Under the pieces are notes generated by a model. That model was not told the DNA's origin. It saw nothing but the letters and a program-made list of their open reading frames with translations, and did not search any database. Positions 8,130 to 30,883 of a stretch of 33,303 nt of DNA are shown here, piece after piece (within the stretch, counting starts at the first letter, position 1; each line of letters opens with the position of its first letter). The DNA is taken from assembly GCA_919902735.1 (NCBI GenBank), contig CAKKRM010000277.1, positions 1 to 33,303 of the forward strand. Reading direction: 5' to 3'. The position numbers were made by a program, and so were the translations under genes. Origin of the DNA: Anaerolineales bacterium. Lineage in GTDB: Bacteria > Chloroflexota > Anaerolineae > Anaerolineales > Villigracilaceae.

Positions 8130-11100
8130 CTACACCTTCTCAACTTTGACCTGCGTATCGTAGAACACCGCCGAACCGCCGACAGGATCGAAGAGGCAGG
8201 TGTTTGTCACCAGCGGGTCTGTCCGCATGGCCGCGTTGGCGTGGATACCTTCGTAGCGGCGTTCGTCGCCCGCGATGGTCGTGCCGTCAATGCTGATGTC
8301 TTGAGCGCCATACGCCCAGTGACCGAAGCCCAGCGCAAAGGCGATCACGCCAGGGCGCATGCCTTCAATAATTTTCACCTTTCCGGTGATGCCGCGTTTG
8401 TGTCCGTTGCCGAAGTCCCATTCGCCTTCGGGGTTGGAGGCTGAACTGATGCGGATCTGATCGCCGTCGTTTAATCTTCGTTTCTGCGCGTCTTCGCTGT
8501 TCATCAGCACGAAGTTTTCGGGCAGGAGCGCCTTGAGCCAGTAGTTGCCTTGCGTGCGGCTCTTGGTCTGGGCGATCTCGCGATAGGTGATCAACTTGAG
8601 GTCGTAGCCGTCAGCGCTGTCGTCAATTACATTGCCATCAAATCCCATGTATGGCTCGACATAAGTTGGGACTGGAGAAAGTGATTTTCCCGTTCCTGCA
8701 TGTTTAACGCCTGTGTTCTTCTCGAGGTACATGTTGATCAGTTTGCCGTACTTCGTTCCAGTGGGGACGATGTTTGGCTCATCGAAGAAACCAGGGAACA
8801 CGCCGTCGCCAGGATAACCTTTTTCGTACGCCTGGAAACGTCCGCCGCGTGCGAGAACCGTTACCACGCGGGGCCAAAGATCGCCCGTAATCGCCTGCCA
8901 GCGTTCAGGATCAAATACCGCCTTAGGCAGATGCGAGCGGGACTTGATGAACAGGTCAATTTCCTCGGGAGAAGCCTCGGGTACCGCGTCTTCCAAATCC
9001 TTCTTTTCGCCGTACGCCAGGTTCATCACCATCCGCAAATAGAGATCATCAGGATGGTTGTAGTCCACGCCTTCGCCAAGTCCGTTTGGACCGAAGTTGG
9101 GCAGTTCCAGTTTTTCAGCGATGGCGAGAAGCATGGCTTCGTACTGCATTGCCATTTCCTGACCGTAGACTTTCACTGTGCCAGTCAGCGGCGCAATAAC
9201 GGGGTTGCGAACGCCCTGCACTTTGAATGTGATGTTCGGGTGCGAACCGCCAAATTCCCAGCGTTCGAGATAGGTGACATCGGGGAAGATGTAATCCGCG
9301 TACATGCTGGTTTCGCCGACGAGAATATCATTGGCGACATACAGTGGAATTTTTTTCACGTCTTGCAAAATCTCGATCCATTTGTGACCGCCAGGCAGTG
9401 AATACACAGGCGAACCCATGTACATGAATGCGGCTTTGATCGGGTAGGGATACGCGTCGCCCGCCGAGGGGATGATCTCCTCGTATACATCCGAAGCCAG
9501 CGGATACCAGTTGCGCTTGGCGGGATAGTGCTGCTCTTCAGGCAGATTCATGTAAATGGTTGACTCTTCGTACTTCGCGTCGTGGCGGATGAGACTGAGT
9601 CCAAACGGCGCCAATGCGCCTGGGTCGGCTTTGCTTAACACGAAGGGACCTTCCGCCTTCGAGCCAGAAATGTCATACGTGCTGGCATACACCTGTCCGC
9701 CACGCCAGTCGAAGTTGCCGATCAGCAGGGCAAGGTTGTACCACGAGATCACGTTGTAATAACCGTTGGTGTGCTGGCTGACGCCGCGATGAATGTCCAC
9801 GCAGGCGTTCTTTCCGTACGACGTAAATTCAAACGCGAGGTCTTCCAAATCCTTCACGCGGATGCCCGCGATCTCAGACCACTCTTCCATCGTCTTCGCG
9901 TTCGCGGATTCTTTCAGGACTTGCAAACCGCTCTTGACGACGAACTCGCCAACGTTCGCATTCTCAACAAAGAGCTGACCTGCGACAACGGAACGATCGG
10001 CATCGTTCGGGTCGAACAGCACAGGATTTGAATCCGCATCCAACACGACGAAGGGGTCGGTTGCAAAAACTACAGGCTCAGTCCCATCTGACGGAAGGGT
10101 CTCGTACGTGACGACCTTCTTGCCGTCCGCTTCCACTTCCTTCTTCTCGACCAGTGCGAGTTCACTGCCGCGCAGGAACTTGCCCGCTGTGCCTTTTTCC
10201 TTGTCAATCTTTACCAGCCAGGGAGCATTGCACCAGGTCGGTTCTTTGCCTGCGGCAGACGCGGCTTTGTTTGCATTGGAGAGATACTTCACGTCATAGC
10301 GTTCGTTCGCTATGACCCATTGGATCAGAGCCAGCGCGATCGCGCCTTCACTGCCGGGCTTGTTGGGAAGCCACTTCCAGGCCTTGCCGCCGATCTTGGA
10401 AAGGCGCGGATCAATCACCGCGAATTTGAGTTCGCCCTTTGCAAGGCGATCCGTGATGCGCGGCACGCGGTTGGTAGGACCGTAATTGCCCTCGAACGGG
10501 GATGAGCCCACGAAGATGACGAACTGCGCCGAAGCGGTGTCGCCCTGCCAGTAGGCTTTTGCGCCGCCCGTGAACTTGGAGGTCGCGGCGTCCCATTGAT
10601 CGCTCATGGATTTGCCAGAGAAATACAGCGAACCCTGGCAGACGGTTGTATGACCATGACGATTGGTCGTGCCTAACCCGGAGCCAAAGAGACGGTGCGC
10701 GATATCCGCGCGTCCGCCCTTCTTGCGTCCCCAGAAGTACAGGATTTCGTTGTTCTTGGGTCCGAAATCGGGATGTTCGGGATCAATCATCTTGTCGAGG
10801 TCGGCGGCGAAATCAGTCTTGAACTGTTCCACCAACGCCTTTTTCTTTTCGACATCTTTTTCGGATCTGATCTTGCCGATGGCAGAGTTCATATCTTTCA
10901 TGACTTTGGCGTCGGTGAGGGCGCGCAGGGCGCGCAAGCCTTCCACTTCACGAGATTCTTCGCCAGAAACATCCGCGAACAGTTTGCCGCCTTCCACGAT
11001 TTCAGTGATTGCTTGATCGAATGGAATGGTGATCCACTTGTTCTCGCCGCGTTTGCCCGCGCGTTTGAGCACCTGCGTAATGCGGAAGGGATCATACGCG

Positions 11101-11468
11101 GCTTGCAGACCAGCCTGTCCCTTCGGGCAGAGTGGCGCGTCGATCTTGCCCATATCAGCGAGAGGAGTGTCATACGCCATATGCGGGACAAGATTCCACG
11201 GCGAGTACGGGTTTCCCTCGATCTTGACGGCAACGCCGTCTACAATTTTTACTTTGATGCCGCATTGTGTGTTGCATTGCTGGCAAATTGAATATACTTG
11301 CTTGGCGGGATCGGTCAGATTGTAGGCTGATCCTTCTGCGCCCTGCGCTAAAACTTTTTGCACTTTGGGCAGGCTGCCAAGAAATGCCGAAGCCGCGCCG
11401 CCGACGCCTGCGATTTTCAAAAAGTCGCGGCGTGAGATTTTACAATTTTCAGGTTGTTTGGTGTTCAT
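8130..11468 (-). CDS. TtrA-like molybdopterin oxidoreductase, catalytic subunit
   Basis: A 1112-residue DMSO reductase-superfamily enzyme. The Tat signal is SRRDFLKIAGVGGAASAF (12-29). A [4Fe-4S] cluster is bound by C62, C65, C69 and C114 (CQQCNTQCG, LCPKG). The likely molybdenum ligand is C277 in TTVCQGSLY. Length and many segments match Salmonella TtrA as I recall it: VLKRAGKRGENKW, EIVEGGKLF, PEHPDFGPKNNE, VKSGLQVLKE, GYPYP-type AYPYPIKAA. It should therefore reduce a sulfur oxyanion such as tetrathionate or a related acceptor outside the membrane, but relatives act on arsenate or selenate and the substrate is not shown. Its start shares a base with the stop of the membrane-anchor gene and has AAGGAGG seven bases upstream. 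Confidence 0.9.
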   Translation of the reverse strand: MNTKQPENCKISRRDFLKIAGVGGAASAFLGSLPKVQKVLAQGAEGSAYNLTDPAKQVYSICQQCNTQCGIKVKIVDGVAVKIEGNPYSPWNLVPHMAYDTPLADMGKIDAPLCPKGQAGLQAAYDPFRITQVLKRAGKRGENKWITIPFDQAITEIVEGGKLFADVSGEESREVEGLRALRALTDAKVMKDMNSAIGKIRSEKDVEKKKALVEQFKTDFAADLDKMIDPEHPDFGPKNNEILYFWGRKKGGRADIAHRLFGSGLGTTNRHGHTTVCQGSLYFSGKSMSDQWDAATSKFTGGAKAYWQGDTASAQFVIFVGSSPFEGNYGPTNRVPRITDRLAKGELKFAVIDPRLSKIGGKAWKWLPNKPGSEGAIALALIQWVIANERYDVKYLSNANKAASAAGKEPTWCNAPWLVKIDKEKGTAGKFLRGSELALVEKKEVEADGKKVVTYETLPSDGTEPVVFATDPFVVLDADSNPVLFDPNDADRSVVAGQLFVENANVGEFVVKSGLQVLKESANAKTMEEWSEIAGIRVKDLEDLAFEFTSYGKNACVDIHRGVSQHTNGYYNVISWYNLALLIGNFDWRGGQVYASTYDISGSKAEGPFVLSKADPGALAPFGLSLIRHDAKYEESTIYMNLPEEQHYPAKRNWYPLASDVYEEIIPSAGDAYPYPIKAAFMYMGSPVYSLPGGHKWIEILQDVKKIPLYVANDILVGETSMYADYIFPDVTYLERWEFGGSHPNITFKVQGVRNPVIAPLTGTVKVYGQEMAMQYEAMLLAIAEKLELPNFGPNGLGEGVDYNHPDDLYLRMVMNLAYGEKKDLEDAVPEASPEEIDLFIKSRSHLPKAVFDPERWQAITGDLWPRVVTVLARGGRFQAYEKGYPGDGVFPGFFDEPNIVPTGTKYGKLINMYLEKNTGVKHAGTGKSLSPVPTYVEPYMGFDGNVIDDSADGYDLKLITYREIAQTKSRTQGNYWLKALLPENFVLMNSEDAQKRRLNDGDQIRISSASNPEGEWDFGNGHKRGITGKVKIIEGMRPGVIAFALGFGHWAYGAQDISIDGTTIAGDERRYEGIHANAAMRTDPLVTNTCLFDPVGGSAVFYDTQVKVEKV

Positions 11469-12606
11469 TACTTCACCTCCTTATCAGGTGTGAAGATTCC
11501 CAGTCTTTTGAAATCGAGTCCAAGCAGGAGGGCGATAATCGTGCCGCCCACTACGCCAGAAACCACCGAGAGTTCAAGCAGGCTGGGGGAATAGTCGAAT
11601 GAGAGATGGGGTCCCGTGAACGCGGTGGCAAGGCCTTCGAGTTCGGGGATGGTCAACGCGGGGAAGACGATGTTCGTGCGTGCAATCGCAAATCCGACCA
11701 GCACGAGCAAGCCCATCCAGCCTGCCCAGCTTCCCTTCTCTGCCAGTTTCGGTTGAGTCAGGATGATGATGGGAATTAGTGTTCCGATCACGATTTGAAC
11801 CGCCCAGAACTGCCAGGAGTACGGACCGAACAATACTGCCTGGACTGCCTGCACGTTTTGCGGAACGCCCGCGTAAATGGATTGGGAGAAATCGCTCCAC
11901 ACGAAATAGGTCTTGACCAGCAAAAGCACAACAACAGCAATGCCTATCACCTTGAGTTGCTCGGGGCGGTTTGCATCCTTTGGAGCAAACCAACCCAGCA
12001 CGATCAACAACAGCGCGAAGCCTGTTGCCATCGAAAAGATCGGGAACTGCACGGGGAGCAGACCAACGTGCCAATACGCGCGGCTGGCGTTTGCGCCCAG
12101 CAATGCGCCCACGCCGCCGCTCAAAAAGATGGAGAGGAACAAGCCGATGGATAACGCCCACTTCGTCAGTTTGGATTCGGCTTTGTTGTACACCAGCCAC
12201 ATCGTCAGGAGGATGACCAAAATGAAGGATGTGTAGCCCCACACCATCTGCGCGAGAAGCGAGAAGGGATTCGGATTCAAGTACACCTTCCAAATTCTTT
12301 CCATGTGACCAATGTCCATGCCGATGGTCGCCAGTGCGGCGGGCATACAGATCAGCGCGCTCCATAGCGCGGCTTTGCCTGTCCCTTTGAACAATTTGAA
12401 GTTGAAAAGATACTCCAGTGTGGCGAACATGTATGCGCCAGTAGCCGCGCCTGCAAAGAACAGGTACATCGCAACCCACAAGCCCCACACCACGTAGGAA
12501 CCGTAATTCACATCGCGCTCACCCACAAACAGGCGGGTATAGATTCCCCACACGCCAGCCAGAAGAGCCAGAGCGCCAACTGCATAAGTCAATCGTTTGG
12601 TTAACA
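11468..12606 (-). CDS. NrfD/PsrC/TtrC-type quinol-oxidising membrane subunit
   Basis: A polytopic membrane protein of 379 residues with nine or so hydrophobic helices, from LTYAVGALALLAGVWGIY to SVVSGVVGGTIIALLLGLDF. The pattern GAATGAYMFATLEYLF and the internal HVGLLPVQFPIFSMATGF fit NrfD-family anchors. It would take electrons from menaquinol and pass them to the four-cluster subunit. The ATG at 12606 has AAGGAGG five bases upstream; an ATG at 12625 overlaps the previous gene and lacks this site. It lies between the iron-sulfur and catalytic genes, giving the order B-C-A. Confidence 0.92.
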
Positions 12607-12617
12607 TCTCTGCCTCC

Positions 12618-13364
12618 TTATACAAGATAGTAGACCTTCGGCTCGGTGCCCAACTCTTCCTTCAGGCGAATCGCGTTCGTCTGCTTGATGAGTTCCGTCA
12701 CCAGGCTGTCGGGGTCGTTGGCATCGCCGTAGAGTGTTGCGCGGCCAATGCAGGTCGTCACACACGCGGGCAGTTCGCCTTCGTGGATGCGGTGCAGGCA
12801 GAAGTGACATTTGCGCGCGTTGCCAATCGGCGAGTCACGATGACCCAGGCGCGGCCACTCCCTGCCATATTCGTAGTTCGCGGCGCGTTCGTAATCGTCA
12901 GCGGTTTCGCGTCCGACGATCGCGCCATCCAACACGGGCAATTCTTCGGTGTAGGTATATCCGAAGTCCGATGTGCGCGCGCCATACGGACAAGCCACGA
13001 TACAAGCGCGGCAACCGATGCACTGTTCATAATCCACAACCACCACACCTTCCGCGTTGGTGTACGTGGCGGTCACAGGGCAAACGGGTGTGCAGGGCGG
13101 GTTATCGCACTGCATACACGGACGGGGGATGAACTGGCGCGACACATTGGGATACATCCCAATCTCGCGCTCCATCACGGGGCGATACACCACCCCAGGC
13201 GGTAACTTGTTCTCAGCCACGCACGCAATGGTACAGGCATGACAACCCACACACTTGCGCAGGTCAATCACCATCACCCAGCGGCGATCCTCAGGCGCCT
13301 TTTCCAAAGCGCGTTGAAGATCTTCATTCATGCGGACGAGAACATCTTTCGGTTCTTGTGCCAT
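12618..13364 (-). CDS. Four [4Fe-4S] ferredoxin-like electron-transfer subunit
   Basis: A 248-residue TtrB/PsrB/DmsB-type protein. Sixteen cysteines form four groups: [35 protein letters not shown] and CHFC...ACVTTC. It links the NrfD-type anchor to the molybdenum subunit. The ATG at 13364 has a perfect AAGGAGG seven bases upstream; the 20-codon extension to 13424 has none. No Tat signal is visible, so export would depend on the signal of the catalytic subunit. It is the first gene of the operon, with a palindrome (atcgga-aaaa-tccgat, 13387-13402) just upstream of its ribosome site. Confidence 0.93.
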
Positions 13365-13548
13365 AGAGAAGCCTCCTTGAAATTTGAATCGGAAAAATCC
13401 GATAATGCCAGCGTTATTGTCCACCTTTCGAGGAAATCTTTATAGCGGGGAAAGTCCGTGTCTTTTTTCAGGATTGTCGGGAAAACCCTTACACGGAAAA
13501 GATGTTTGGCTTTCTGAGACTGTAAATTTGCCGGATTGCGTAGGAATC

Positions 13549-16982: not shown

Positions 16983-17849
16983 TTACAGTCGCGGAATTAA
17001 TACAGGCGTTCTCTTTTTATAGGATTCATAATCATCCTGCCCGCCCCATTTTTTATCCGCCTTTTTCTCAAGTAGGGGAACTCCGCTGACGCGGGTAAGA
17101 AGCAATGTGACAAAAACAGGAGAAATCATTGCAACCCACTGCCATCCTTGTAGAGCGGGCAGGGCGATAACTGCCACGCCGACCCAGAGAATGATCTCGC
17201 CAAAGTAATTGGGATGACGGGATCGGGACCATAGGCCTGTTTGAATGAACTTGCCTTTGTTGTCTGGGTTTGCATTGAAGCGACTTTTTTGGGAATCAGC
17301 TACGATTTCAATAGCAAAACCAAAAACCCATAACAGAAAACCGATAATGGCAAAAACATCCAATTCTTTTCGAGTAGTTGTTGTAATGGCAACCAGCGCG
17401 GCAGCCATCGTGAATGTTACCCATAAGCCTTGAATTGTCCAGACGTTTAGGAAGCGGACAAAAGAAGGTTTGATTTCATCAAAACGATCATCCTTCCCCG
17501 CTTTTTGGATGCGACCGAACAAGAAACTGCCCAGACGGATTGCCCAGATCATTACTAAAGCCGCCAGAAGGATTGACCTAACATCAATGCCAGTACTAAA
17601 AAGAACTGCGATTATGGTAACGGAAATATAAGTAATACTTCCTGTCAGATCGAAGAATTTTTCAGTCTGCAATAAATATGCTGGAATAAAGACCAGCCAC
17701 TGGATTAGAAATGCCAGCCCGACAGACATGGCAAATAATGGAATACCAGCAATCGAGGCTCCGCCCTGACTGCCAGCCAAAGCGACCAGAATACCGATCA
17801 ATATCAAAACGGGAAATGTAATGAGAGCATTGCGATCTGTCGTCTTCAA
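16983..17849 (-). CDS. DUF1295 (steroid 5-alpha-reductase-like) membrane protein
   Basis: A 288-residue polytopic membrane protein. The C-terminal motifs GLWSRSRHPNYFGEIILW and LLEKKADKKWGGQDDYESYKKRTP are those of DUF1295 (PF06966), a relative of steroid 5-alpha-reductases and isoprenylcysteine methyltransferases. The start is the TTG at 17849, with AAAGGAG eight bases upstream; the longer frame to 18035 overlaps the previous gene. The reaction is unknown; a lipid or isoprenoid substrate is likely from the fold. DUF1295 genes also occur in LitR/CarH-controlled light-induced clusters, as I recall, which fits this operon. Confidence 0.88.
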   Translation of the reverse strand: MKTTDRNALITFPVLILIGILVALAGSQGGASIAGIPLFAMSVGLAFLIQWLVFIPAYLLQTEKFFDLTGSITYISVTIIAVLFSTGIDVRSILLAALVMIWAIRLGSFLFGRIQKAGKDDRFDEIKPSFVRFLNVWTIQGLWVTFTMAAALVAITTTTRKELDVFAIIGFLLWVFGFAIEIVADSQKSRFNANPDNKGKFIQTGLWSRSRHPNYFGEIILWVGVAVIALPALQGWQWVAMISPVFVTLLLTRVSGVPLLEKKADKKWGGQDDYESYKKRTPVLIPRL

Positions 17850-17886
17850 GAATTCTTCTCCTTTTATAACTTTTGTTGGATTTGGA

Positions 17887-18567
17887 TTAAAACCCGCGTC
17901 GCTGACCTTGCCAAGGGGCCGGGGTGGCGTTACGAAACTCTTCCACGCTTGGGCCGCGTAGTTGCGCAAGCCGCCATGTTCCGTACAAATAACTAAAAAC
18001 CAACAGCAAAATGGTGGCCAGCCAGCCGGTGACAAAGTTGGTCACTGCCAACGAATTGACATCCTGATTTTCAAATAGTGAAAATTGCAGGAACAGGCGG
18101 GCAGTGAAGAATATCGCCCAGGCGAAAGTCACCTCGCTGTAGGCTGGGCGCACCTGCGGATGCCAGTACCAATCCAGTGGCCAGCGGCGGGCGATATAAC
18201 TGATCCACGCCACCATCGGGCGGCGGATAACCAGACTTACGATTATCAGAAGAAATGTCATACTTCCGCTGACGAGGCCCGGCAGAAAAAATCCTTCCGA
18301 TTTTCCCAGGAACCATGCAATACCAATGGCGACTGCTACACTGCCAACTCCCGCCAGCGCGTAGATCAAAGATTGTTTGCGGACAATTCTCACGGCAGCG
18401 ATGATGATCGAAAGCGATAGCGCGCTCCACATCGCGGCTTGAAAGCCAACCAAGCGGTTGATCAGCAGAAAAAGTATCGGCGGCAGGATGGCGTCGAGGA
18501 AGGAGTTGCGCCCCGCTGATACTGTGCGGAGTTCTTCCAGCAGTTCGCGCCATTTTAATTTCTTCAT
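17887..18567 (-). CDS. DUF3159 membrane protein
   Basis: A 226-residue membrane protein that looks like DUF3159, a family best known from actinobacteria. About five hydrophobic helices are visible. GFFLPGLVSGSMTFLLIIVSLV and RRPMVAWISYIARRWP are the recognisable parts, followed by a C-terminal GPSVEEFRNATPAPW. The function is unknown. It starts three bases after the DUF1475 stop and is followed by the DUF1295 gene after 37 bases, so it is firmly within the operon. Confidence 0.8.
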   Translation of the reverse strand: MKKLKWRELLEELRTVSAGRNSFLDAILPPILFLLINRLVGFQAAMWSALSLSIIIAAVRIVRKQSLIYALAGVGSVAVAIGIAWFLGKSEGFFLPGLVSGSMTFLLIIVSLVIRRPMVAWISYIARRWPLDWYWHPQVRPAYSEVTFAWAIFFTARLFLQFSLFENQDVNSLAVTNFVTGWLATILLLVFSYLYGTWRLAQLRGPSVEEFRNATPAPWQGQRRGF

Positions 18568-18570
18568 TCT

Positions 18571-18897
18571 TTACGCATGTTTCCCGAGCCAGAATTTGCG
18601 CCAGTCGTCGCCGCTCACTTGCAGGGCGATGAACGCGTACAGGCTGTCAGCGAAGAATCCCAAGGTCATCATGGCGACTGTCCAAAGGATGGCGACAGGC
18701 AGGGATTTTTCGCGGTAGATGATCCACCCCGAGAAGAGGGTGAAGCCCGCGTATAAGTCCACGAGGGAGACGATGCCCCACGGCATGGCAAATAGTTGAC
18801 TGCCTTCGCCGAAGAAATCTCCGCGGGTGAAACCGTTAATCAACACGGCAGTCATGGCGAGAATACCGAAAAGGGAAATGGTTTTTGCAAGTTTCAT
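18571..18897 (-). CDS. DUF1475 small membrane protein
   Basis: A 108-residue protein with about three membrane helices. WGIVSLVDLYAGFTLFSGWI, with a polar aspartate inside the helix, is the DUF1475 landmark. The ATG at 18897 comes four bases after the degV stop, with AAAGGA upstream inside the end of degV; the longer frame overlaps degV and is rejected. The function is unknown. DUF1475 proteins are found in photosynthetic and other light-exposed organisms, and the place beside a rhodopsin is suggestive only. Confidence 0.8.
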   Translation of the reverse strand: MKLAKTISLFGILAMTAVLINGFTRGDFFGEGSQLFAMPWGIVSLVDLYAGFTLFSGWIIYREKSLPVAILWTVAMMTLGFFADSLYAFIALQVSGDDWRKFWLGKHA

Positions 18898-18901
18898 GAA
18901 T

Positions 18902-19738
18902 TTATTCCTTTGAGATACATGCGAATCCCAGGGCGCCGATGCCGAGGTGCGCGCCGAGGACTGGGGTGATTTGCGCAATGAGAATTTCGCCATCGGGCAA
19001 AAAAGATTTAGCTAGATGATAGAGGGTCCGCGCTTCTTCTTCCACTCCAGCGTGGACAATGGCAAGTTTTTCGTACGGGGCATATTCCTTCAACCACCAG
19101 AGCAAATGTGATATCGCCTTTCTGCGAGTCCGCGTGCGGTGAGCGGTGGCATTGCCCATATTCATGTGCAGAAGCGGTTTGAGTTGTAAGAGTTCGCCAA
19201 ATGTGGCTATGGCAAAATTCATACGTCCGCTGCGGCGCAGATATTCGAGCGTATTCAATGCCGCGAAGACATACGCGCGCGGCATGGATTCTTTCAACGC
19301 AGAGAGGATCCTATCTACAGAGTTTCCTGAGCTGGCAAGTTGTGCGGCCTGTTCAACGAGGAATCCCATGCCGAGACTGAGTTGACTCGAATCCAATACC
19401 AAGACAGGAATGCGGGTAAATTGTTCGGCGGCAATACGTGCCGAGTTGACCGTTGCGCTTAAAGTTTCTGAAATATGAATGGATAGAATGGCTAAGGCAC
19501 CTTCATCTGCGAGACGGTTATATGCCTGTGTAAAAACTTCGGGTCCCGGTGCAGCAGTTTTGGGATGCGGACTGAAATTTGGAAGTTGGGCATAAAACTC
19601 TTCGCGCGAAAGATCCACTCCATCCAGAAAAGATTTGTCGCCTACATTGATACTCAACGGAATCACGGTGATCCCATATTGATTTATTACCTCAGCAGGC
19701 AGGTCACAAGTGCTGTCGGTGACAATGGCAATTTTCAA
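18902..19738 (-). CDS. DegV family fatty-acid-binding protein
   Basis: A 278-residue cytoplasmic DegV protein. The N-terminus IAIVTDSTCDLP is the family signature. PLSINVGDKSFLDGVDLS, ILSIHISETLSATVNSA (with the fatty-acid carboxylate-binding serines) and LNTLEYLRRSGRM are also typical. DegV (FakB-like) proteins hold one fatty acid and can present it to a kinase; a kinase gene is not in the window. The start is a TTG at 19738 with AAGGAG six bases upstream, 30 bases after the heliorhodopsin stop. Confidence 0.92.
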   Translation of the reverse strand: MKIAIVTDSTCDLPAEVINQYGITVIPLSINVGDKSFLDGVDLSREEFYAQLPNFSPHPKTAAPGPEVFTQAYNRLADEGALAILSIHISETLSATVNSARIAAEQFTRIPVLVLDSSQLSLGMGFLVEQAAQLASSGNSVDRILSALKESMPRAYVFAALNTLEYLRRSGRMNFAIATFGELLQLKPLLHMNMGNATAHRTRTRRKAISHLLWWLKEYAPYEKLAIVHAGVEEEARTLYHLAKSFLPDGEILIAQITPVLGAHLGIGALGFACISKE

Positions 19739-20598: not shown

Positions 20599-21915
20599 CT
20601 ATCTGGCTGGCTGAGCCTGTGTTTTCAGCCAATCCTTGATCGGCGTGCCCGAGCCGTTAATATGCTTGTTCACTGCCTGTGAATAAGTCTCCATGAAATA
20701 GGACAATTCTTCTGGAGGCCGTTGGCGCGAATTCATCAGAACCTTCACCCATTCCATTTCTGCGGTGACGTGTTCGATGTCGCCAAGTTGAAGGGCGGCG
20801 GCGATGTTGTCGCCGAGAAAGCGGACGCCTGTGTCGAAGTCTTCGGAATGGGCGGCGGGTGGCATGTTTTCTTTGATCGCGCTTTCGATGTGGATGCGCT
20901 TGGAGGTAAACGCCCGATGCGCTTCGATATACGACTGTGAGAGGCTCCTGGTCTGGGTGGGTTTGATCCTGGCTTGCAGGAGCGTTTCCACTGTGTCGAG
21001 GGAAGCAGTCAGCGAATCGCCGAGATGGTGACCTGGGATATGGTCCGCCAGATTCGGATGGAGATTGAAGATGCGTCCGCCGTAACCGACGGAGACGCGT
21101 AGTCCTGTCAGCGCGAGCGCGGTGGATTGCAGCGTGGCGGCGGTGGTCAACGTCTGTGCGGCGAGAATGACGAGGTTTGCATGAACGGCGGTGACGGTTT
21201 CCTCGAAGCGTTCAGCGGGAACGTTTGCGCCGAGGTGGATCACGTTCAGCCCGCGGCGGCGCAGAAGCAGGGATAGTAGTAATGGTGTGAAGGTGTGCCA
21301 TTCATTTGGAGAGCATCCTACAACGATGGTTTGATTTCGTGTTGGAACAGGGGAGGCGCTGATGAGCGAGTCGAGCCGGCGCATGGCGAGACCTGATGCA
21401 AAATGCTCCTGTTGCACAGAGGCTTCGTTTGCGTACCAAAGTCCGCCGAGTTCTGACAATCCTTTTTGCAAAACATCCATGCAAACTGCTTCGACAGGAT
21501 ACATGGAGAAAGCCTGGTTCAAGATTTGCTCGGCAGCGACTTCGCTAAAATTCAAGCAGGCGGCAACCCATTTGGCCCGCAGGGAATCGAGATTCATTTC
21601 GGAAGAAGCGATGGCAAGAGTCGCCTCGGGGGAGAAAAATGTCGAAGGGGCTCCGCCAGCCAGGGGGTCCAGCCCAGAAGCGATTTTTTCATTCCACAAA
21701 TCCACTGCGCGGGAAATCGAAAGTCCCTCTGCTTGGCGCGCCATCAGCCATTTGATTGTCTCGATGTCATATTGCGAATACAAGCGATGCCCGCCCGCGG
21801 TGCGCTGGGGCTTGGGCATGCCGTAGCGTCGTTCCCAGGCGCGCAGGGTGTCGGCGGCGAGGTTGGTTTCTTGCAGAACGGCTTTCAGGTTGAAGGTGGG
21901 AGTTTTGCTGGGCAT
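20599..21915 (-). CDS. CarH/LitR-type MerR regulator with cobalamin-binding photosensor domain
   Basis: A 438-residue transcription regulator. A MerR helix-turn-helix (about 8-75: LAADTLRAWERRYGMP, GGHRLYSQYDIETIKWL) is joined to a helical cap with the light-sensor motif W-x9-EH (W160, E170, H171) and a B12-binding Rossmann domain with axial histidine H207 in NEWHTF. CarH binds DNA as an adenosylcobalamin-loaded tetramer in the dark and falls apart in light. The residue after W160 is tyrosine, where Thermus CarH, as I recall, has the histidine that ligates cobalt after illumination. A C-terminal extension of about 120 residues is unusual. The start is the ATG at 21915: an ATG at 21945 lies upstream of the predicted transcript start. 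Confidence 0.92.
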   Translation of the reverse strand: MPSKTPTFNLKAVLQETNLAADTLRAWERRYGMPKPQRTAGGHRLYSQYDIETIKWLMARQAEGLSISRAVDLWNEKIASGLDPLAGGAPSTFFSPEATLAIASSEMNLDSLRAKWVAACLNFSEVAAEQILNQAFSMYPVEAVCMDVLQKGLSELGGLWYANEASVQQEHFASGLAMRRLDSLISASPVPTRNQTIVVGCSPNEWHTFTPLLLSLLLRRRGLNVIHLGANVPAERFEETVTAVHANLVILAAQTLTTAATLQSTALALTGLRVSVGYGGRIFNLHPNLADHIPGHHLGDSLTASLDTVETLLQARIKPTQTRSLSQSYIEAHRAFTSKRIHIESAIKENMPPAAHSEDFDTGVRFLGDNIAAALQLGDIEHVTAEMEWVKVLMNSRQRPPEELSYFMETYSQAVNKHINGSGTPIKDWLKTQAQPAR

Positions 21916-21936
21916 TTGATTTCCTAGTTGGGGGTG

Positions 21937-21964
21937 ATTATACATATTGTCCAGTATTTGTCAA
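21937..21964 (-). promoter_or_regulatory. Promoter of the CarH-heliorhodopsin operon
   Basis: On the minus strand TTGACA (21959-21964) and TATAAT (21937-21942) are both perfect and 16 bases apart. Transcription would begin near 21930, about 15 bases before the ATG at 21915. The -35 box lies inside the operator. Confidence 0.8.
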
Positions 21965-21990
21965 TATATATATTGACAATACATTGACAA
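21947..21990. promoter_or_regulatory. Symmetric four-half-site operator
   Basis: Four half-sites stand at 21947-21951 and 21958-21962 (TTGTC) and at 21975-21979 and 21986-21990 (GACAA). Neighbours on each side are 11 bases apart, one helical turn, and the whole is exactly symmetric about 21968.5. The inner two form a perfect 22-bp palindrome (21958-21979). The operator covers the -35 boxes of both divergent promoters. CarH of Thermus is known to contact repeats at 11-bp steps, so this is the expected binding site of the adjacent regulator. Confidence 0.75.
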
Positions 21991-22011
21991 AGTTGAATAT
22001 ATCGGTAAAAT
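21984..22011 (+). promoter_or_regulatory. Promoter of the TspO-like gene
   Basis: TTGACA (21984-21989) and TAAAAT (22006-22011) are 16 bases apart. Transcription would begin near 22018, and AAGGAG precedes the ATG at 22036. The -35 box overlaps the outer right half-site of the operator. Confidence 0.75.
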
Positions 22012-22035
22012 AGGGATATTCAAAAAGGAGTTTTC

Positions 22036-22791
22036 ATGTCAAAAGATACACTGCGCCAATTTGCAAACCTGTTGAGCGTCATCCTGGCGCTGACAATCAA
22101 TGTTCTCGCTTCCGTCCTGCCGCTCAACGGACAGAACACGGGCGAAATCTCGGATCGCTTCCAGGTTTATTTTGTGCCTGCGGGATATGTCTTTGCCATC
22201 TGGGGCATTATCTACATTGGTTGGATCGCTTTCACGATTTTCCAATTCCGACCTTCACAGAAGGAAAGCCCGCACCTGCGGAGACTTGGATACCTGTTTG
22301 CCCTCAGCGGGATTTTCAATTCCACGTGGTTGTTCACCTGGCATTACAACATCTTTGGCTTGGGTGTTCTGGTTATGCTATCCCTGCTTGGATTGCTCAT
22401 CGCCAGTTACCTGCGACTAAACGTGAATGGTTTCTCCGTCCCCCGTGTAGAATGGTGGTCGGTGGACTTGCCATTTAGCATTTATCTGGGCTGGATCACG
22501 GTCGCAACCGTGGCAAACGTGACCGATTGGCTGTATCTGATCGGCTGGAACGGATTCGGCATCGCGGCTCCTACTTGGGCGGTGATCATGATCGCAGTGG
22601 CATCCGTACCTGGATTGCTCATGGCGCTCACGCGTCGGGATGCGGGATATCTGTTTGTGCTGGTCTGGTCATTTGTGGGTATTGCCCTCAAACAGGTGGC
22701 TGCACCGGATGTGGTCATCGCTGCGTGGATAGGCGCAGGGTTTATGTTTGTCCTTGCGGTCTACAGCCTCATTCGACCGAAAACCGCATAA
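22036..22791 (+). CDS. TspO/MBR-related tryptophan-rich membrane protein
   Basis: A 251-residue polytopic membrane protein with about eight hydrophobic segments, longer than classical TspO (about 160). PAGYVFAIWGIIYIGW and GIFNSTWLFTWHYNIFGLGVLVM are TspO-like, and tryptophans are frequent. Classical TspO binds porphyrins and takes part in light and oxidative-stress responses. It is transcribed away from the CarH-like gene from a promoter under the same operator, which links tetrapyrrole, B12 and light biology. Alternative reading: a TspO-superfamily member with another ligand. Confidence 0.82.
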   Translation: MSKDTLRQFANLLSVILALTINVLASVLPLNGQNTGEISDRFQVYFVPAGYVFAIWGIIYIGWIAFTIFQFRPSQKESPHLRRLGYLFALSGIFNSTWLFTWHYNIFGLGVLVMLSLLGLLIASYLRLNVNGFSVPRVEWWSVDLPFSIYLGWITVATVANVTDWLYLIGWNGFGIAAPTWAVIMIAVASVPGLLMALTRRDAGYLFVLVWSFVGIALKQVAAPDVVIAAWIGAGFMFVLAVYSLIRPKTA

Positions 22792-25743: not shown

Positions 25744-27096
25744 TTATGCAGGTACAGCCTGATTGTACAACTGCTGTTTTATGGATGCGATGTCTTTTTC
25801 CAAACGGCTGTCGCCATGCCTGATTTGATCTTTTATTTTTTCGATGGCAGACATTACGGTGGAATGGTCGCGTCCGCCGAGGAATTCGCCGATTTGCGGG
25901 AAGGAAATTTTAGCTTCTTCGCGCAGCAGGTACATCGCGATCTGGCGGGGATAGGCCACTTCCTTTGTGCGGTCGCGTCCTAAAAGCTTTTCGGAAGTCA
26001 GGTTATATTTTCGGGCGACGAGGCTTACCACGTGGGCAGGCTCGATATCACCACGGGCAGGCATGAGGTCGGCGAGAGCCACTTCCACAAGGTTGGGGGT
26101 GAGGGCAGAGCCGCTCAGGTCGGCAAAGGCAATGATGCGATTCAATGCGCCTTCGAGTTCACGAATATTAGACTGAACCTGCTTGGCAACACTTTCGAGA
26201 ATTTCATCAGAAATGTGGCGGCCTGTACGTTCGGCTTTGGAGCGCAGAATGGCAAGGCGGGTTTCATAATCGGGAGCCTGAATGTCGGCGGTTAACCCCC
26301 ACTCGAAGCGGGAGCGCAGGCGTTCTTCCAGCGTGATGAGAGACTTGGGAGGGCGGTCGGACGAAACGATGATCTGTTTGTCCTGTCCGTGCAAGGTGTT
26401 GAAGGTGTGGAAGAATTCCTCCTGCGTAGATTCCTTGCCTGCGATGAATTGGATATCGTCTACGAGCAGAACGTCGGCAGAGCGGTATTTTTCGCGGAAG
26501 GCCTGGGTGGTGTGGGTACGAATGGCGTTGATCATGTCGTTCGTGAATTCTTCTGAGGAGACGTATAAGACGTTAAGTCCGCTGGTGTGGCAGGCGTTGC
26601 CAATGGCGTGTAATAAGTGAGTTTTGCCAAGTCCTACGCCACCGTAGAGGAAAAGCGGGTTGTAAGCGCGGGCGGGTTTCTCTGCCACAGCCTGACAGGC
26701 CGCATGTGCGAGGCGGTTGCCAGAGCCGACCACGTAAGTATCGAAGGTATAGCGCGGATTTAATGTCACATGGCGGGGTTTGGGCTCGGGTGGCGTTATT
26801 TCGATGGAAGAGGCGGCAGGTTCAAGGTCGGAGGAAGAGGCGTTTTCGTCCGATTGGGAAACAACGAACTTAACCGCAACGTTCGAGTTAAGGATTTCGA
26901 TCAATAATTTGCTGACATCGGTCGCAAGACGGCTTTCGAGCCAGTCACGCGCATACGCGTTGCGTACGCCAACGGTGATCATGCCGTTCTCGTACGCCAA
27001 TGGACGGGTATCACGCACCCAGGTATCGAAAGAAGCGCGCGGCATTTCCATTTGAAGTTGTGCGAGTACTGACTGCCAAGCCTGCTCTGCATTCAT
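25744..27096 (-). CDS. dnaA: Chromosomal replication initiator DnaA
   Basis: A 450-residue DnaA of normal length. Domain I (1-90) interacts with helicase loaders, a short linker follows, and the AAA+ domain has Walker A GGVGLGKTH (152-160) and Walker B VLLVDDIQF. The C-terminal DNA-binding domain has the signature GRDHSTVMSAIEKI. DnaA opens the replication origin by binding DnaA boxes. The ATG has AAGGA six bases upstream. The usual neighbour dnaN is absent, and no DnaA-box cluster is seen upstream, so the origin may lie elsewhere. REP-like palindromes flank this gene and the kinase beside it. Confidence 0.98.
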   Translation of the reverse strand: MNAEQAWQSVLAQLQMEMPRASFDTWVRDTRPLAYENGMITVGVRNAYARDWLESRLATDVSKLLIEILNSNVAVKFVVSQSDENASSSDLEPAASSIEITPPEPKPRHVTLNPRYTFDTYVVGSGNRLAHAACQAVAEKPARAYNPLFLYGGVGLGKTHLLHAIGNACHTSGLNVLYVSSEEFTNDMINAIRTHTTQAFREKYRSADVLLVDDIQFIAGKESTQEEFFHTFNTLHGQDKQIIVSSDRPPKSLITLEERLRSRFEWGLTADIQAPDYETRLAILRSKAERTGRHISDEILESVAKQVQSNIRELEGALNRIIAFADLSGSALTPNLVEVALADLMPARGDIEPAHVVSLVARKYNLTSEKLLGRDRTKEVAYPRQIAMYLLREEAKISFPQIGEFLGGRDHSTVMSAIEKIKDQIRHGDSRLEKDIASIKQQLYNQAVPA

Positions 27097-29599: not shown

Positions 29600-30883
29600 A
29601 TGACAACTTCACGCATCTCTGGATTTTACAACCTGACCATCGAAGAGCGCCGCGCCAAACTTGCGGACGCCGCGCATCTTTCCCCGCCCGATCTTGCTTC
29701 GTGGACGACAGGCGGACTCTCCGCTGAATCAGCCGACCACATGATCGAAAACGTGGTCGGCTTACATTCCCTGCCCCTCGGCATTGGACTCAACTTCATG
29801 GTGAACGGGCGCGATGTGCTCGTGCCCTTCGTTGTGGAAGAGCCATCCGTTGTGGCAGGCGCTTCGTTCATGGCAAAACTCGTCCGCGCGGGCGGCGGAT
29901 TCTTCGCCACCACCACTGACCCATTGATGATTGGGCAAATGCAACTGATCAACCTCGTCAACGTGGAAGAAGCCAAGCTAAAAATTTACGAGCACAAAGC
30001 AGAACTGCTTTCCATCGCAGACGAGATCGACCCGATCCTCAAAAAATTTGGCGGCGGCGCACGAGACATCGAAGTCCGCGTGATTGACGACTCCCCCATC
30101 GGCGCATTCATCGTCATTCACCTCATTTATGATGTGCGCGATGCCATGGGCGCGAACGCAGTCAACACAGCTTGCGAAAAACTCGCCCCGCAGATCGAAG
30201 CCATCACGGACGGGAAAATTCACCTGAAAATTCTCTCCAACCTCGCAGACCGCAGACTGGCCCGCGTGCGCTGCACAATCCCAGTCAGCGAATTAACTGT
30301 CGGATTTGAATCCTTCAAAGGGGAGACCGTCCGCGATGGAATTATCGCCGCTTACGCCTTCGCGGCATCCGACCCGTATCGCGCCGCCACCCACAACAAA
30401 GGCATCATGAACGGCGTGGACGCAGTTGTCCTCGCCACTGGCAACGACTGGCGCGCCATCGAAGCAGGCGCACATGCCTACGCCGCCCGTTCTGGAAGAT
30501 ACACCTCCCTCTCCACCTGGGGCAAAGACAAGGATGGCAACCTCGTTGGAACGCTCGAAATGCCGATGGCCGTGGGAATCGTCGGCGGCGCGACTAAAGT
30601 CCACCCTGGCGCGCAAGCCGCAGTTAAGTTGATGAACGTGAAAACCGCCAACGAACTCGCAGAAATCATCGTCTCTGTGGGACTCGCTCAAAACATGGCC
30701 GCCTTGCGCGCGCTTTCCACCGAAGGCATCCAACGCGGACATATGTCGCTACATGCAAGGCAAGTTGCAATTGCGGCAGGCGCGAGTGGCGAATTGATCG
30801 AAAAAGTCGCTGCGCAAATGGTGGCGGAAAAAATTGTGAGAATTGACCGCGCAGAAGAAATTTTAAGCAGCGGAGCTGAATAA
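29600..30883 (+). CDS. mvaA: Class II hydroxymethylglutaryl-CoA reductase
   Basis: A 427-residue enzyme that converts HMG-CoA to mevalonate, or the reverse. Class II features: ENVVG with the catalytic Glu, DAMGANAVNTACE, NKGIMNGVDAV with the catalytic Lys, GNDWRA with the catalytic Asp, and EGIQRGHMSLHARQ with the catalytic His. The enzyme has no membrane anchor. In bacteria without the MEP route it supplies isoprenoids, which would also feed retinal for the heliorhodopsin. No good ribosome site is seen; an 11-codon frame upstream ends in the ATGA that starts this gene, so coupled translation is possible. Confidence 0.95.
   Translation: MTTSRISGFYNLTIEERRAKLADAAHLSPPDLASWTTGGLSAESADHMIENVVGLHSLPLGIGLNFMVNGRDVLVPFVVEEPSVVAGASFMAKLVRAGGGFFATTTDPLMIGQMQLINLVNVEEAKLKIYEHKAELLSIADEIDPILKKFGGGARDIEVRVIDDSPIGAFIVIHLIYDVRDAMGANAVNTACEKLAPQIEAITDGKIHLKILSNLADRRLARVRCTIPVSELTVGFESFKGETVRDGIIAAYAFAASDPYRAATHNKGIMNGVDAVVLATGNDWRAIEAGAHAYAARSGRYTSLSTWGKDKDGNLVGTLEMPMAVGIVGGATKVHPGAQAAVKLMNVKTANELAEIIVSVGLAQNMAALRALSTEGIQRGHMSLHARQVAIAAGASGELIEKVAAQMVAEKIVRIDRAEEILSSGAE

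Follow-up and report, generated by a model that had tools for sequence, protein, structure and literature searches.

A candidate two-armed CarH-type operator between a heliorhodopsin operon and a TSPO-like gene in an Anaerolineales bacterium

Heliorhodopsin's role is debated, and the locus described here raises the question of how the gene for such a protein might be controlled. In the window (the whole stretch of DNA analysed, 33,303 nucleotides of an Anaerolineales contig) a heliorhodopsin gene lies directly 3' of a gene for a CarH-like regulator, and a 120-bp intergenic stretch separates that regulator gene from a divergent gene for a membrane protein. Sequence, conservation, gene context and domain make-up, which were all observed directly, bear on the answer. 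We consider it highly probable from the sequence comparisons that the intergenic site is a two-armed operator for the neighbouring B12-dependent CarH-like repressor, that it is derived from a crtB/crtI operator, and that it controls both divergent genes. It would be a CarH operator variant rewired to heliorhodopsin, in a facing-pair form that was not met in the CarH literature consulted, and its architecture makes it a candidate operator for a large group of uncharacterised B12 regulators of the Chloroflexota. The genes concerned are these:

16983..18035, minus strand: DUF1295 (steroid-reductase-like) membrane protein, presumed operon; profile match; collinear DNA in L102, L103, L104 and L097
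17887..18567, minus strand: DUF3159 protein, presumed operon; profile match
18571..18993, minus strand: DUF1475 protein, presumed operon; profile match
18902..19738, minus strand: DegV-family protein, presumed operon; profile match; collinear DNA in L102, L103, L104 and L097
19769..20548, minus strand: heliorhodopsin, directly 3' of carH; PF18761 325 bits (cut-off 26.7), NCBIfam HeR 348 bits (cut-off 100)
20599..21915, minus strand: carH-like regulator, 438 aa from ATG 21915; MerR helix-turn-helix, four-helix B12 cap, B12-binding Rossmann domain, C-terminal photoglobin-like domain
22036..22791, plus strand: divergent membrane protein of 251 aa, with roughly the first 170 residues in a TSPO-like fold

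The carH, heliorhodopsin, DegV, DUF1475, DUF3159 and DUF1295 genes follow one another on one strand in that order, and most of the run has collinear DNA in L102, L103, L104 and L097; the true start of the DUF1295 gene is uncertain because its open frame overlaps the preceding gene.

Layout of the intergenic site

The site at 21937-22011 contains the following features:

21937..21942, minus strand: -10 box TATAAT of the carH/heliorhodopsin operon, predicted by promoter scan
21947..21957, minus strand: 11-bp repeat ATACTGGACAA, outer copy of the carH arm (TnnACA = TGGACA), within the 16-bp spacer of the carH promoter
21958..21968, minus strand: 11-bp repeat TATATTGACAA, inner copy of the carH arm, includes the carH -35 box 21964-21959
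21969..21979, plus strand: 11-bp repeat TATATTGACAA, inner copy of the membrane-protein arm, 5' of the -35 box
21980..21990, plus strand: 11-bp repeat TACATTGACAA, outer copy of the membrane-protein arm, includes the -35 box 21984-21989
22006..22011, plus strand: -10 box TAAAAT of the membrane-protein gene, predicted by promoter scan

Positions 21947-21990 thus consist of four contiguous 11-bp repeats (nnnnTnnACAn notation), two on the minus strand and two on the plus strand with their junction at 21968/21969, and the two pairs face each other head to head, each overlapping one of two divergent promoters. The half-sites reported in the preliminary description (TTGTC starting at 21947 and 21958, GACAA at 21975 and 21986, both steps 11 bp, centre 21968.5) are exact to the base. 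Its inner pair is indeed a perfect 22-bp palindrome (21958-21979), the longest within the intergenic stretch, but this palindrome is absent from the relatives compared. Both divergent -35 boxes overlap repeats, as had also been described: the promoter scan gives a minus-strand promoter scoring 12/12 (-35 at 21964-21959, 16-bp spacer, -10 at 21942-21937) and a plus-strand promoter scoring 11/12 (-35 at 21984-21989, 16-bp spacer, -10 at 22006-22011), and it found seven promoter-like sites in 21700-22300 against a mean of 0.5 over 50 shuffles. At the carH promoter one repeat forms the -35 box and the second lies inside the spacer; at the membrane-protein promoter one repeat forms the -35 box and the second lies upstream of it. 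At both promoters the distance between the start of the -35 box and the start of the -10 box is 22 bp, or two steps.

CarH repeats have the form nnnnTnnACAn and a length of 11 bp (PMC9304148), and 4/4 TnnACA-type copies of the site fit this motif and step. The CarH operators of Thermus thermophilus, Bacillus megaterium and myxobacteria have in common with it the placing of such repeats over -35/-10 boxes, and the predicted -35 boxes of both promoters here sit inside repeats. Where the preliminary description took mirrored half-sites to be known for CarH, the accessible accounts say otherwise: published operators are tandem, in one orientation, with from one to four complete repeats and additional degenerate copies (PMC9304148, PMC8156234). 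A strict CarH operator would have repeats in a single orientation, usually three or four, whereas this site has two per strand, head to head, with one pair per promoter, and so is best called a variant of the type. Inverted repeats were first proposed for the M. xanthus CarA site and later replaced by direct repeats, and single-site binding has been proposed to control divergent promoters in Sorangium cellulosum (PMC9304148).

Dinucleotide shuffling of the intergenic stretch never produced TnnACA pairs at 11 bp in both arrangements, inverted and direct, in 20,000 trials, and it gave a palindrome of at least 22 bp in 1 of 4,000. The exact mirror symmetry is present as claimed, but it is automatic once two oppositely oriented 11-bp pairs exist and therefore adds no evidence, and because the gap between arms varies from 5 to 34 bp in relatives the exact mirror geometry is not under selection. 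The window's own genome is a 356-contig draft, 96% complete, in which the 42-bp array pattern has a single exact match, at this site, and two further places with two mismatches. No second operator was recognised there: the two-repeat pattern gave 55 matches, two of which are this site, where a reversed control gave 22, and the 26 two-repeat loci inspected all lay inside stop-to-stop frames of at least 128 codons. Four CrtI-family matches were found in the same genome, all under the family cut-off; one has a weak two-repeat pair about 800 bp upstream and the other three have none.

Recurrence in relatives and the reading of the arms

Recurrence in related genomes had been set beforehand as a refutation test, and the arrangement was found again: a 2+2 head-to-head array is present in 45 of 49 distinct divergent crtB/crtI regions of related Anaerolineales (68 regions minus duplicates, 160 bp on each side included, none taken from the pattern search described below). 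Steps of 7-10 and 12-16 bp gave 0 or 1 in 49, and shuffles a mean of 0.025 in 49. In the four regions without it (L119, L128, L133 and L134) the reverse arm is missing. The genes were named crtI and crtB from sequence motifs and a PF00494 match, and eight sampled proteins were then profile-tested: the crtI proteins scored 471-500 bits against a cut-off of 238, and the crtB proteins 261-272 bits with PF00494, above its cut-off and under the NCBIfam phytoene synthase cut-offs.

Read on the crtI strand, the consensus of these arrays is TTTGTCAAGGTTTTGCAAA, the gap, TTGACAAATAnTAGACAA and then a -10 box. The outer left copy, equivalent to window 21980..21990, is TTGACA in 41/45 and the inner right copy, equivalent to 21958..21968, in 43/45. 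The copy equivalent to 21947..21957 varies (TAGACA 24, TTGACA 5, TGGACA 5, TCGACA 3, and others), and at the copy equivalent to 21969..21979 the commonest form is TTTGCA (23/45). A -10 box stands at a 16-bp spacer in 40/45 left arms and 41/45 right arms, the latter being the equivalents of the carH arm, so that TTGACA with this spacer is found nearly always in both arms.

Of the 152 genomes of the family 89 have a regulator homologue, as do 207 of a sample of 400 genomes from the order, and 45 loci came from named records. In the first 89 distinct carH loci, same-strand TnnACA pairs at 11 bp occurred in 9 on the carH strand and 11 on the other strand, with at most 4 at any other spacing from 6 to 30 bp; RCAA pairs at 11 bp occurred on the carH strand in 67, with at most 30 at other spacings (30 at 30 bp, 15 at 22 bp). 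When 163 distinct carH loci were counted (duplicates removed, 26 loci without a usable carH start left out), head-to-head arrays stood directly before carH in 14, with 16 gaps where shuffles gave a mean of 0.08. Half-sites were defined liberally for this count (RCAA or TnnRCA), and L114, L199 and L181 are the weakest of the 14, which divide by the gene opposite:

TSPO-like gene: window, L145, L097; L178 (gene starts 246 bp away)
epimerase-like gene: L164, L071 (L164 protein TIGR01777 332 bits)
crtI: L137, L140, L142 (L137 crtI 471 bits)
remaining: L144, L114, L123, L199 and the weak L181

The other 149 of 163 carH genes have no head-to-head array in the 250 bp upstream of them, and many sit behind crtI. 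In an unbiased search of the 152 genomes the array pattern matched 34 times in the forward direction, in 24 genomes, and 6 times when reversed. Twelve of 24 loci lay between crtI and crtB, two between crtI and carH and one before carH, one was the window, and the remaining eight (L275, L278, L280, L283, L287, L288, L289 and L291) had none of six marker genes nearby. The pattern matches in genome G070 resemble a repeated element. It is with the crtB/crtI promoter pair, more than with the carH promoter, that the array is conserved; in relatives it usually lies between pigment genes, and here it adjoins a heliorhodopsin operon and a TSPO-fold gene.

The spacing of the two arms bears on how they relate to one another. 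Innermost gaps in the 45 crtB/crtI arrays are 5 (2), 7 (1), 8 (2), 9 (11), 10 (1), 16 (11), 18 (4), 19 (8), 20 (4) and 26 bp (1), so they group at 5-10 and 16-20 and leave 11-15 and 21-25 empty; the 14 carH-adjacent arrays have gaps of 8 (four), 9 (two), 19 (four), 20 (two), 29 and 34 bp. Pooled, the two sets give a mean resultant of 0.63 at 10.3 bp, reached by 0 of 5,000 uniform draws. When each combination of cluster and gap was represented by a single locus, 7 of 5,000 draws reached the period of about 10-11 bp, and 15 of 5,000 did when each cluster was. These clusters are coarse (single-linkage, 45 loci in one cluster) and remove relatedness only partly. Helical phasing of the arms is real but loose. 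The preliminary description proposed a single tetramer, which would use its four DNA-binding domains on the four repeats. The phasing favours contact between the arms, and the class of arrays with a 16-bp gap (11/45, some 3 bp out of the main phase) argues against one rigid complex; strict phasing as proof of one tetramer is not claimed, given that off-phase class. A version of our explanation in which the arms are two independent back-to-back operators, each holding one oligomer without contact to the other, is a serious if tentative possibility. Each arm does resemble a small tandem CarH operator, and the breadth of the gaps and the off-phase class fit such independence, but the grouping of the gaps at a helical period counts against it.

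That the site is a real operator read by some regulator other than the adjacent CarH-like protein we regard as quite unlikely. The arrays mostly adjoin crtB/crtI and not carH, and CarH-like binding is a prediction, which leaves room for another reader, but the motif and step match published CarH operators and the carH genes that sit behind crtI bear a related 11-bp motif of their own. A carH gene does lie in the same cluster at the loci examined, but this is to be expected since the loci were mostly retrieved by carH homology.

It is very unlikely that the site holds only two strong divergent promoters, with TTGACA and its AT-rich flanks mimicking repeats and RNA polymerase the sole binder. 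Two of the four repeats do hold -35 boxes and TTGACA fits TnnACA, but the other two hold the 11-bp step in the same 45 of 49 relatives and hardly occur at other steps, and the second hexamer of one arm lies in the -35/-10 spacer, where it has no known promoter role. A classical palindromic MerR operator, with the perfect inner palindrome as the site and the outer copies incidental, is scarcely credible and was dropped: relatives keep both 11-bp steps but often have TTTGCA as the inner copy of the far arm and a varied gap, and the palindrome is not conserved.

The regulator and the proposed switch

The preliminary description identified the adjacent gene as encoding a CarH-like MerR/B12 regulator, and the domain matches bear this out: PF13411, PF02607 and PF02310, that is MerR and both B12 subdomains, are above their cut-offs. 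Its longest open frame starts at 21945, upstream of the -10 box, and the ATG at 21915 agrees with the relatives. With CarH (class I LitR) the protein shares the MerR domain, the four-helix B12 cap with Wx9EH (W170, E180, H181; the motif is present in 160 of 161 related regulators), the position of the His ligand and the Rossmann B12 domain. It differs from CarH in having about 120 extra C-terminal residues, a T in place of the last G of ExHxxG and a score of 134 bits for the NCBIfam CarH equivalog against a cut-off of 400. The (E/D)xHxxG motif is incomplete (EWHTFT), with E215 and H217 kept and T220 replacing G; the final G was found in 2 of 42 aligned long relatives.

In the AlphaFold model of the regulator (mean pLDDT 91.5), residues 117-448 superpose on two solved photocobilins, SasPcob (8j2w) with Z 30.5 (rmsd 2.5 A, 313 aligned) and AbPcob (8j2y) with Z 30.3, and the B12 domain of TtCarH gives Z 23.8 over 197 aligned residues. 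Because the SasPcob superposition takes in the C-terminal domain, this extra domain is most likely a photoglobin domain, although a sequence search with it alone (residues ~330-448) gave no convincing relative. Photocobilins are sensors of B12 and biliverdin, so a red-light input to the regulator is possible on the strength of the model. Biliverdin in SasPcob is gripped by Asp270 and Trp296 (PMC10979010), for which the likely equivalents, placed by motif and order and not by residue-level superposition, are D379 (21/42) and W399 (42/42). A search for heme oxygenases of the PF01126 family came up empty in 21 of 22 genomes, the window's included, and bilin use by the regulator is for that reason uncertain. 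The two published photocobilins share the fold but, as far as the accessible accounts go, have no MerR domain, one having no further domain and the other a diguanylate cyclase (PMC11796333, PMC10979010). Photoglobin domains fused to several other domains were reported earlier, and it has been suggested that photocobilins may control transcription factors (PMC10979010).

Homology to CarH would give the site its binding and repression and its dependence on B12 and light, and would make the operators of the family kin by descent. Each arm would be a tandem CarH-type 11-bp pair covering the -35 box of one promoter. In the dark, if the CarH mechanism carries over (PMC8156234, PMC9304148), an AdoCbl-bound oligomer would sit on the repeats and shut both promoters; in the light the Co-C bond would be cleaved, the oligomer would dissociate and both promoters would open. 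The carH-heliorhodopsin-degV operon and the TSPO-like gene would then be switched on together by light, and carH would be autoregulated, since it lies in an operon under its own operator. The specific prediction is that the heliorhodopsin gene is turned on by light under B12 control. We think it doubtful that the arrangement goes further, to a two-chromophore factor combining MerR, B12 and a bilin photoglobin domain that reads green and red light, sits as one oligomer across the phased head-to-head operator and co-switches the heliorhodopsin operon and the TSPO-like gene, a former carotenoid switch, its carotenoid genes lost, now serving to adjust the level of another light-sensing protein.

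Neighbouring genes and the history of the locus

The divergent membrane protein matched no Pfam family at E 0.001 and none above cut-off. Its model (pLDDT 87) resembles RsTSPO with Z 11.7 (rmsd 3.7, 146 aligned), and with Z 11.4-11.7 over residues ~2-173, where unrelated designed helical proteins reach 8.4; further helices follow the TSPO-like part.

Heliorhodopsin was found in 16 of the 152 family genomes, and directly after carH in seven loci: the window, L097, L098, L099, L102, L103 and L104. MerR-family regulators are among frequent heliorhodopsin neighbours (PMC11109279), and the accessible text of that study identifies neither a B12 photoreceptor nor an operator in such operons. A literature search that covered few subscription papers found nothing joining heliorhodopsin and CarH, and among papers that mention both CarH and Chloroflexi none had a title on the present subject.

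The crtI and crtB genes lie beside carH in L099 and L102, and neither does in L097, L098, L103 or L104, nor in the window's stretches (L001, L294). The order in L099 is TSPO-like gene, crtB, array, crtI, carH, heliorhodopsin, and a TSPO-like relative lies just downstream of crtB in 9 of the 49 crtB/crtI loci, many of which end too early to tell. Because the TSPO-like gene sits downstream of crtB, deleting crtB and crtI would give the gene order of the window. In a FastTree tree, read without regard to branch support, the window's carH nests among crtI/crtB-linked carH genes and the L097/L098 carH stands beside L099/L069 in another crt-linked group. Of 22 genomes searched, 13 have a phytoene synthase (PF00494); the gene is present for L102 and L099, scores only 78 bits in the L097 genome, and was not found in the genomes of L098, L103 and L104 or in the window's draft genome, where with 356 contigs its absence could be a gap. 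The simplest reading of these comparisons is that crtB and crtI were lost more than once and that operator, TSPO-like gene and carH were left in place; the operator would then descend from the crtB/crtI operator of the family's carotenoid cluster, kept when those genes were lost. Heliorhodopsin is 84-99% identical to the window's in the carH-linked loci and carH 47-68%, so transfer of a heliorhodopsin cassette is an alternative or an addition to crt loss; the high identity could reflect such transfer or strong constraint.

Eight of 10 heliorhodopsin genes that are not directly behind carH have no two-repeat pair in 300 bp upstream, the exceptions being L101 with a reverse pair and L112 with a forward pair. 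At L101:3441-3800 a related array, its inner left copy degenerate, separates crtI from a divergent heliorhodopsin gene that has crtB behind it, a second way of putting heliorhodopsin at a CarH-type operator. The heliorhodopsin match of L102 (G139:C150:102373-103352) is in two pieces, one with an internal TAA, and is either a broken gene or an assembly error. L105, L110 and L111 have TSPO-like relatives about 3 kb or less from heliorhodopsin, and no carH in the stretch covered.

Elsewhere in the window, dnaA (25744-27096) lies about 3 kb past the divergent gene, and the GC skew between 24 and 28 kb is high, so a replication origin may be near. Genes for a molybdopterin oxidoreductase, an iron-sulfur protein and an NrfD-like protein stand in a row at 8130-13424 and likely encode a membrane-bound respiratory complex. 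HMG-CoA reductase is missing from many bacteria; a gene for it (PF00368) is found here at 29600-30883.
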